Part shown: positions 16,888-18,081 of the stretch, in pieces
Numbering within the stretch: the first letter of the stretch is position 1
How the letters are laid out: every line of letters starts with the position of its first letter
Made by a program: the position numbers and the translations under genes
NCBI GenBank assembly: GCA_016870865.1
Contig: VGAC01000001.1
Coordinates: 124,001 to 188,000, forward strand
Length of the DNA stretch: 64,000 nt
Reading direction: 5' to 3'
Source of the DNA: Actinomycetota bacterium
GTDB taxonomy: Bacteria; Actinomycetota; Acidimicrobiia; Acidimicrobiales; Ilumatobacteraceae
Notes under the pieces: generated by a model
What the model was told of the DNA's origin: nothing
Database searches by the model: none
What the model saw: only the letters and a program-made list of their open reading frames with translations

Positions 16888-17244
16888 TCAGCCCGCCACG
16901 GGGTTCACGTAGGTGCGGTAGACACTGAGCAGCGAGTTCTTCTGCTCACTGGAGAGAAGCGGATCGGCCAGCACGGCTTCTTCGACCGACTGCGTCGCCG
17001 CTGGCGCGCGGGAACTGTCGCCGTCGAGGATCCCGGCGCGGACGTACAGCGTCTCAGCCGAGACATGCAGTGCACGCGCGATCTGCTGGAGGATTTCAGC
17101 CGAGGGCTTGCGCAGGCCACGCTCGATCTGCGACAGGTAGGGATTCGACACGCCGGCGAGACGTGAAAGATCGCGAATCGACTGTTGGGTGGCTTCGCGG
17201 CGCTGCCGAATGAAGTCACCCAGGTCGACGAGACGCTTGTCCAC
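16888..17244 (-). CDS. XRE-family helix-turn-helix regulator
   Basis: A 118-residue protein with an N-terminal HTH (about residues 8-62: LGDFIRQRREATQQSIRDLS, then LAGVSNPYLSQIERG) and a C-terminal helical part. It is cotranscribed with mshA (1-nt gap), so it may control mycothiol genes. The start is a GTG; a near-consensus TAGACA lies 6 nt upstream. The target is unknown. Confidence 0.88.
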   Translation of the reverse strand: MDKRLVDLGDFIRQRREATQQSIRDLSRLAGVSNPYLSQIERGLRKPSAEILQQIARALHVSAETLYVRAGILDGDSSRAPAATQSVEEAVLADPLLSSEQKNSLLSVYRTYVNPVAG

Positions 17245-17319: not shown

Positions 17320-17832
17320 TCAGTCCAGCAGGCTGTCGACGGATGCGCCACCACTCTTGTAGCGCTCGACAAGTTCGCGGCTCAAGGCATCGATGCGACC
17401 GAAGAGGGTCCTGCGTTCCGTCGAGCGCTCACCTTCGAATGCGGCAAGGGCGGACTCGAGTGCACCCAATTCCCCGTCGTCAAGATCGGCGAAATCAGCG
17501 AAGTGCAATCGATCACAGATGTCGCTGAGTTCGACGATTCGCGGGTGGTCGGCACTCACGGCGGTGTCTCGCGGCGGCCGCGCCGACCCGGCGCCCTGTT
17601 GCTGGCCGAACACGGCGGCGAGCTCACCCGGTGCGGCACTCGCATGCGACCCCGCACCACGGCGGGACCGCTCCACACGCACGATGTCGAGCCGGCCCTG
17701 TGCGACACGGCGCACGAACGACACCACGTCTTCTTCCCCCTGCAACGTCGCGCGCAAAGCGCGCAGTTCACCCAGTGACAGCGACGACGGATCGACGTTC
17801 GTGCCTGATGCGGATTCGTCTGGAGCGGCGAT
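17320..17832 (-). CDS. RsiG-like protein with c-di-GMP signature, probable ATC start
   Basis: The protein carries the exact signature E(x3)S(x2)R(x3)Q(x3)D of RsiG, the c-di-GMP-dependent anti-sigma factor of WhiG-type sigma factors, at Glu34-Asp49 (numbered from the ATC). RsiG of Streptomyces has two such motifs; I see one here, as reported for simpler homologues that act as dimers. A second helix follows (about 125-155). No ATG, GTG or TTG is available before residue 26, and the conserved helix starts earlier, at about residue 18. A TAGAGT hexamer lies 6 nt before an in-frame ATC at 17832, so I propose ATC. A TTG at 17757 is the fallback and would cut the helix. Confidence 0.7.
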   Translation of the reverse strand: MAAPDESASGTNVDPSSLSLGELRALRATLQGEEDVVSFVRRVAQGRLDIVRVERSRRGAGSHASAAPGELAAVFGQQQGAGSARPPRDTAVSADHPRIVELSDICDRLHFADFADLDDGELGALESALAAFEGERSTERRTLFGRIDALSRELVERYKSGGASVDSLLD

Positions 17833-17838
17833 GTTCGT

Positions 17839-17844
17839 ACTCTA
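17839..17844 (-). promoter_or_regulatory. -10 hexamer TAGAGT at the moaD-rsiG junction
   Basis: TAG is the stop codon of the MoaD-like gene and is in frame with the rsiG-like gene, so translation of that frame cannot start further upstream. The hexamer ends 6 nt before ATC 17832. Confidence 0.5.
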
Positions 17845-18081
17845 GAACCCGCCGGAAACCGGAGGGAGGACGGCAACCTCGTCGCCCGGGCCCACCGGTG
17901 CGCCGCGATCGGTCTCGTCGCCGTTGCACCACACCCGACACGTTGCGAGCACCGCGGCGAACCCCTCGCCGTAACGGAGGCACGCTTCATCGAGCAGTTC
18001 CCCGACCGTGGCGACCTCGAACACATCCGAACCCCTCCCGGCGGCTTCGCGGGCGGCGGCAAAAAGTCTCAAAGTCGCCAT
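17842..18081 (-). CDS. MoaD/ThiS-family sulfur-carrier protein ending GGF
   Basis: A 79-residue ubiquitin-fold protein: MATLRLFAAAREAAGRG at the start and GDEVAVLPPVSGGF at the end. MoaD and ThiS proteins act through a C-terminal Gly-Gly that is adenylated and then thiocarboxylated. Here one extra Phe follows GlyGly, so the tail would need trimming before activation or the protein may have another role. The ATG at 18081 lies 8 nt after a TACCCT hexamer. No other molybdopterin or thiamine gene is nearby. Confidence 0.82.
   Translation of the reverse strand: MATLRLFAAAREAAGRGSDVFEVATVGELLDEACLRYGEGFAAVLATCRVWCNGDETDRGAPVGPGDEVAVLPPVSGGF

Follow-up and report, generated by a model that had tools for sequence, protein, structure and literature searches.

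The window, the whole stretch of 64,000 nucleotides that was analysed, carries on its minus strand an open frame of 173 codons, which runs from behind a TAG at 17844-17842 to a TGA at 17322-17320. Both the frame 17320-17844 and the TAG that closes it upstream agree with the original prediction. The same TAG is also the stop codon of an upstream gene of the ThiS/MoaD type, and a gene for a regulator of the XRE type lies downstream. The features of the locus are as follows.

17842..18081, minus strand: ThiS/MoaD-family gene upstream of rsiG (Pfam ThiS, E=3.8e-12); its product ends in PPVSGGF, and it is in the same frame as rsiG.
17839..17844, minus strand: TAGAGT, a -10-like hexamer that opens with the stop codon (TAG) of the upstream gene.
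17320..17832, minus strand: rsiG, assigned as a twin-motif anti-sigma factor; 170 codons if it starts at the candidate ATC, ending at the TGA.
17830..17832, minus strand: ATC, candidate and probably leaderless start, 6 nt after TAGAGT; kept in the four species of a sub-clade.
17779..17781, minus strand: CTG, codon 21 of the open frame, a competing near-cognate candidate; the nearest relative (L008) has ATG here.
17755..17757, minus strand: TTG, codon 29 of the open frame (26 from the ATC), the first canonical start; its use would remove the conserved SLSLGELRA.
17686..17733, minus strand: c-di-GMP motif 1 (E37-S41-R44-Q48-D52), carried by helix alpha1, which is predicted at residues 23-62.
17389..17436, minus strand: c-di-GMP motif 2 (E136-S140-R143-F147-D151), carried by the other long helix, which is predicted at residues 122-162.
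16888..17244, minus strand: XRE/HTH_3 regulator gene downstream of rsiG (Pfam HTH_3, E=3.5e-13), with a GTG start.

In much of the ThiS/MoaD family represented by the upstream gene, the Gly-Gly is followed by one to three extra residues (GGF here; GGL, GGSL, GGCQ and GGAT elsewhere). The tail would therefore need trimming before activation. Most of the named records for close relatives belong to actinobacterial MAGs; several come from lakes, and one is labelled Ilumatobacteraceae. Three MAG labels look wrong, those of L051, L056 and L057, which read 'Bifidobacterium breve' in two records and 'Acidobacteria bacterium' in one.

The rsiG product and its two c-di-GMP motifs

The frame matches Pfam family PF22802, RsiG, in two stretches (E=2.8e-26; 91.4 bits against a cut-off of 27). 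The best PDB match of the product is RsiG of S. venezuelae, 6pfj_T, which aligns over residues 18-172 (E=1.7e-12). The next-ranked solved relatives are the single-motif RsiGs of Rubrobacter, which align with the first helix only. The NCBIfam profiles gave no RsiG model match for the product. An AlphaFold2 model based on an 11-sequence alignment has a mean pLDDT of 70 and predicts helices at residues 23-62 and 122-162. The only Foldseek matches of note to this model are 6pfv_T, 6pfj_T and 6pfv_E, with a TM of about 0.5 (E=4.4e-4 for 6pfv_T). Residues 1-14 of the model are of very low confidence, so that the fold gives no fix on the start. The RsiG-like identity proposed earlier is thus supported by the Pfam and PDB matches, and the gene product is almost certainly RsiG.

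The first motif reads E-DVV-S-FV-R-RVA-Q-GRL-D and occupies codons 37-52 of the open frame, which are Glu34-Asp49 when counted from the ATC. The exact E(x3)S(x2)R(x3)Q(x3)D signature that had been predicted there is present, and the Pfam score speaks against chance. The second motif reads E-GER-S-TE-R-RTL-F-GRI-D at codons 136-151, with the spacing of motif 1 and with F for Q. Conservation was read from 90 orthologues of the same order. S, R and D of motif 1 are invariant, and its fourth position is Q in 88 orthologues and H in two; E, S and R of motif 2 are invariant, and its D is found in 87 of the 90. The fourth position of motif 2 is F in 67, H in 20 and Y in three, and never Q. Judged from these sequences, the aromatic residue at this position is a lineage-typical variant, and the ring of the Phe could stack on guanine where S. 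venezuelae has Q.

The original prediction saw a single signature, which suggested the simpler dimeric form and perhaps an early type of the switch. The letters of motif 1 alone are perfect for E(x3)S(x2)R(x3)Q(x3)D, which favors that reading. However, motif 2 at codons 136-151, which was missed, retains each of the four residues E, S, R and D, and Pfam also reports two stretches. The two motifs lie on two long helices, and the alignment with S. venezuelae RsiG runs through residue 172. The second helix is absent from the single-motif RsiGs of Rubrobacter (PMC8325347). A single-motif homodimer is thus rejected on the sequence and extremely improbable. The two motifs, equal in spacing and both conserved, point to a twin-motif RsiG with an aromatic residue in motif 2 instead of an early dimeric form, and we regard the twin-motif type as virtually certain.

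The closest solved system is the twin-motif RsiG of S. venezuelae (PDB 6pfj and 6pfv). Both proteins have two long motif-bearing helices (predicted here) joined by a linker, equal motif spacing, a similar C-terminal RY(K/R)xGxAxVDxLL and a WhiG partner. They differ in that the motif-2 glutamine is Phe here, the identity is about 30%, the host has a small genome and no known sporulation, and the gene has no canonical start codon. The single-motif RsiG of Rubrobacter radiotolerans (PDB 7lq2-7lq4) shares a homologous first helix and the first motif, but it has no second helix and dimerises (PMC8325347), whereas both motifs are found here. The RsiG switch in Acidimicrobiales is already on record, with twin-motif RsiG in three of four species of the order (PMC8325347); these have the same architecture and probably belong to the same order as the present organism. 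That survey found both motifs strikingly conserved, the sole exception being a Q-to-H change in motif 1 (PMC8325347). The present orthologues differ from it in that all 90 carry an aromatic residue in motif 2.

The predicted WhiG partner and c-di-GMP signalling

The original prediction expected a WhiG-type sigma factor in the genome, which is 1.95 Mb in size and 96% complete. Such a gene, of the FliA/WhiG family, is present at C4:66586-67221, elsewhere in the genome than rsiG, and its contact residues are kept. The product scores 261 bits on TIGR02479, against a cut-off of 189.6, and among PDB chains it matches best the WhiG from the solved S. venezuelae complex (3.4e-71). The model that ranks first for it is the WhiG equivalog PRK06288, with 279 bits, yet this is below the model's own cut-off of 343 bits. 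The segment LVKFVAGR retains K57, G61 and R62, the residues of WhiG that contact c-di-GMP (PMC8325347). Read from the translations, the genes in this neighbourhood are, in order, a XerC-type recombinase, whiG, an M23-type peptidase and rpsB.

The two genes occur together. Among 120 related genomes, 93 have both, 18 have neither, six have RsiG only and three have WhiG only (Fisher p=1.4e-13). A genome was counted as WhiG-positive on a match with E<1e-65, and one partial match at a contig edge was added. Five genomes with only a lower-scoring second FliA-type paralogue were scored WhiG-negative; RsiG is also absent from them. The organism thus has an RsiG-family protein with both motifs and a WhiG with the nucleotide-contact residues, and the two are co-distributed.

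The details of the fold, the binding of c-di-GMP and the switching of RsiG-WhiG are presumed from the solved homologues. At high c-di-GMP, two nucleotides would occupy the motif pair of an antiparallel RsiG coiled coil, and the loaded protein would clamp the sigma2 and sigma4 domains of WhiG. A drop in c-di-GMP would release WhiG and allow transcription of the WhiG regulon. The genome encodes two GGDEF-EAL proteins, one of them with PAS domains, which could make or break c-di-GMP and are candidates for setting its level. The search for WhiG-type promoters of the form TAAA-N13-16-GCCGATAA gave none at 0 mismatches and none at up to one mismatch with N15.

The start region of rsiG and a second gene with the same anatomy

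The open frame of rsiG contains no ATG, GTG or TTG before the TTG at codon 29. This agrees with the earlier statement that there is none before residue 26 counted from the ATC, and exactly 6 nt indeed separate the TAGAGT hexamer from the in-frame ATC that follows at 17832-17830. Conservation in the family begins at the column of residue 19, and 88 of the 90 orthologues have a canonical start (ATG, GTG or TTG) upstream of this column. Only the own genome (L001) and its nearest relative (L008) are without a canonical start before the conserved helix. Comparison of rsiG codons 21-173 between these two gives a dS of 0.76, a dN of 0.09 and a pN/pS of 0.18, which is purifying selection. The dS and dN values indicate that the gene is functional in spite of the missing canonical start. 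A pseudogene is ruled out by the same pN/pS. A sequencing or assembly error at the start is unlikely, since the ATC junction is common to four separate MAG species, two of them without any canonical start.

These four species form sub-clade A (L001, L008, L009 and L010). Their junction reads TAG AGT ACG A[AG]C ATC GCN, in one open frame with rsiG; in two of the four, L009 and L010, there is also a TTG at codon 11. Across the 12 species of the genus, rsiG is preceded by TAGAGTACG-NNN-ATCGC, in which TAGAGTACG and ATCGC are invariant. Sub-clade B (L011-L018) keeps this element and has a leader of about 35 nt that is out of frame and has indels, and rsiG has an ATG at the position of codon 16. 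ATCGC is just as conserved in these sister species, in which it is not in the rsiG frame, so the constraint on it may stem from the start of transcription. In L011-L018, a mini-ORF of 9-12 codons begins with the ATC of this TSS-like element and stops just before the rsiG ATG or overlaps it (ATGA). It is possibly an upstream coupling ORF, or it arose by chance. For codons 4-20 of rsiG, pN/pS is 0.56-0.95 in most pairs, with a column-shuffle p of 0.13-0.16. Codons 5-20 show no clear coding signal, and strong selection starts from codon 21.

Leaderless promoters are real in this genome. Of 349 long ORFs in 464 kb, 41 have TANNNT 6-7 nt ahead of an in-frame ATG or GTG close to their beginning, against five at the control distance of 12-13 nt. 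This peak places TAGAGT-N6-ATC exactly at the leaderless position. As a class, ATC shows no general enrichment behind leaderless -10 boxes in the same 464 kb, so that ATC, if used, is rare. In leaderless mRNAs of mycobacteria, too, a -10 hexamer precedes the first codon by 6-7 nt, and there is no Shine-Dalgarno sequence (PMC4633059). TAGAGT-N6-ATC has the hexamer spacing of such a gene, but its first codon would be ATC, whereas mycobacterial leaderless initiation requires ATG or GTG at the 5' end (PMC4633059). In mycobacteria, ATC gave 0.2% even with a Shine-Dalgarno sequence (PMC4633059).

A second gene, which came from a scan for the same anatomy, encodes a beta-lactamase-family serine hydrolase (PF00144; G000:C5:22724-23539, equivalent to L138:2724-3539, minus strand). 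It lies directly behind a gene resembling that of class II DAHP synthase, and the junction reads TTC TAA CCT GAA CTA ATC AAA GCC TTC, which gives TAACCT-N6-ATC. The ATC is kept in the same four species as that of rsiG (relatives L142-L145), and in these species there is no ATG, GTG or TTG before the conserved WPVEF. Codons 5-18 have a pN/pS of 0.21, compared with 0.16 in the body of the gene. Sub-clade B (L146-L151) has a downstream ATG start. The upstream coding sequence includes the hexamer in its conserved end, and the ATC overlaps the upstream stop codon (TAATC). Coupling, rather than a promoter, may therefore explain the ATC of the serine hydrolase.

An unbiased scan of coding potential upstream of the first canonical codon covered 864 kb of the own genome, sampled as stretches. 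The scan gave 55 matches, most of them antisense or spurious and a handful apparently real. It recovers infC (L124:7625-8254, minus strand), which has an AUA start behind an AGGAG Shine-Dalgarno sequence; infC is known for non-canonical starts and thus serves as a positive control. The infC (IF3) genes, with AUU, AUC or AUA, resemble rsiG in a near-cognate AUN start, but they have a Shine-Dalgarno sequence, and infC is an autoregulated special case; neither feature is known of rsiG or the serine hydrolase gene. Homology begins before the first ATG, GTG or TTG in oppD (L141 near 7091, minus strand) and rarD (L158 near 15654, plus strand); in both, a CTG overlaps the upstream stop (CTGA) and is an apparent CUG start. 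A type IV prepilin peptidase gene (PF01478; 57444-58073 of the window, minus strand) stands directly behind a TAG. It has no ATG, GTG or TTG before codon 17, which is itself within the first hydrophobic helix, and an ACG is found 6 nt after an AGGAG.

Candidate AUC initiation and its alternatives

The rsiG mRNA most probably begins at the A of the ATC, 6 nt past the TAGAGT hexamer. Translation would begin at this AUC with initiator Met, on a leaderless message, through re-initiation once ribosomes have passed the upstream UAG, or in both ways. The position of the ATC, the absence of alternatives in two species, its conservation and the parallel gene all point to AUC. On the other side, ATCGC is conserved also where it is out of frame, and codons 5-20 show little constraint. 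The TTG at codon 11 in L009 and L010, the lack of a general ATC enrichment behind -10 boxes and the mycobacterial requirement for ATG or GTG also speak against it. The evidence is circumstantial and the reading plausible; we lean slightly towards an AUC start, as a matter of judgement and not of computation. The ATC start of the original prediction thus has circumstantial support from the canonical starts upstream of the later TTG in 88 of 90 orthologues and from the similar second gene, and it is weakened by the poor coding signal between the ATC and codon 20.

The TTG at codon 29 is the first canonical codon, and it is kept in the four sub-clade species and in seven of the eight sister species. 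Initiation there would give a shortened family N-terminus, cut helix alpha1 (residues 23-62) and delete SLSLGELRA, and codons 21-60 are under strong selection. As the original prediction had proposed, start codons of orthologues were compared; 88 of the 90 have a canonical start upstream of this position. Given the conservation upstream of it, the TTG was rejected and is very unlikely to be the start. Another near-cognate codon in the 5' segment, most likely the CTG at codon 21, would turn the stretch from the ATC to codon 20 into a leader. This agrees with the onset of strong selection at codon 21 after codons without a clear coding signal, with the ATG at codon 21 in the nearest relative, with the leader of about 35 nt before the ATG at codon 16 in sister species, and with the apparent use of CTG at CTGA overlaps by two other genes of the own genome. 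However, residues 17-20 (DPSS/NPAS) are conserved across genus and family, no Shine-Dalgarno sequence precedes codon 21, and Leu or Met is usual at this position in the family. We consider a start at the CTG or another near-cognate codon unlikely.

RsiG could also depend on the upstream ThiS/MoaD gene, by re-initiation at AUC or by read-through of the UAG into a fusion protein. The TAG is in the rsiG frame in all four species, two of which have no canonical start in between, and in the orthologues read by eye rsiG lies directly behind the same ThiS/MoaD-type gene. In the sister species, however, the two genes are in different frames, a C-terminal fusion would block the ThiS/MoaD-type Gly-Gly tail, and an invariant promoter-like element stands at the gene junction. 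This origin is about as improbable as the CTG start; re-initiation at AUC is counted both here and under the AUC reading. Taken together, a twin-motif RsiG-WhiG switch with an AUC start is the best explanation of the locus, and we hold it to be fairly probable.

A wider proposal is that, in one sub-clade of a small-genome genus of the Ilumatobacteraceae type, AUC serves as a regular start codon of leaderless or stop-coupled mRNAs, with rsiG and the serine hydrolase among the genes that use it and its use conserved in four species. This proposal is tentative, and we give it somewhat less than an even chance. If it is true, weak AUC initiation would partly set the c-di-GMP brake on WhiG. The general view is that leaderless initiation requires AUG or GUG at the 5' end. 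Two unrelated genes with an ATC at the exact leaderless position, conserved in four species and with no canonical start ahead of the conserved protein, would, if the ATC is used, show that AUC can serve. Gene finders that call only ATG, GTG and TTG would miss or truncate such genes. The order-wide aromatic change in the second c-di-GMP motif is testable for its effect on affinity. The predicted RsiG-WhiG switch is extended, with strong co-occurrence, to small-genome actinobacteria of the freshwater type.
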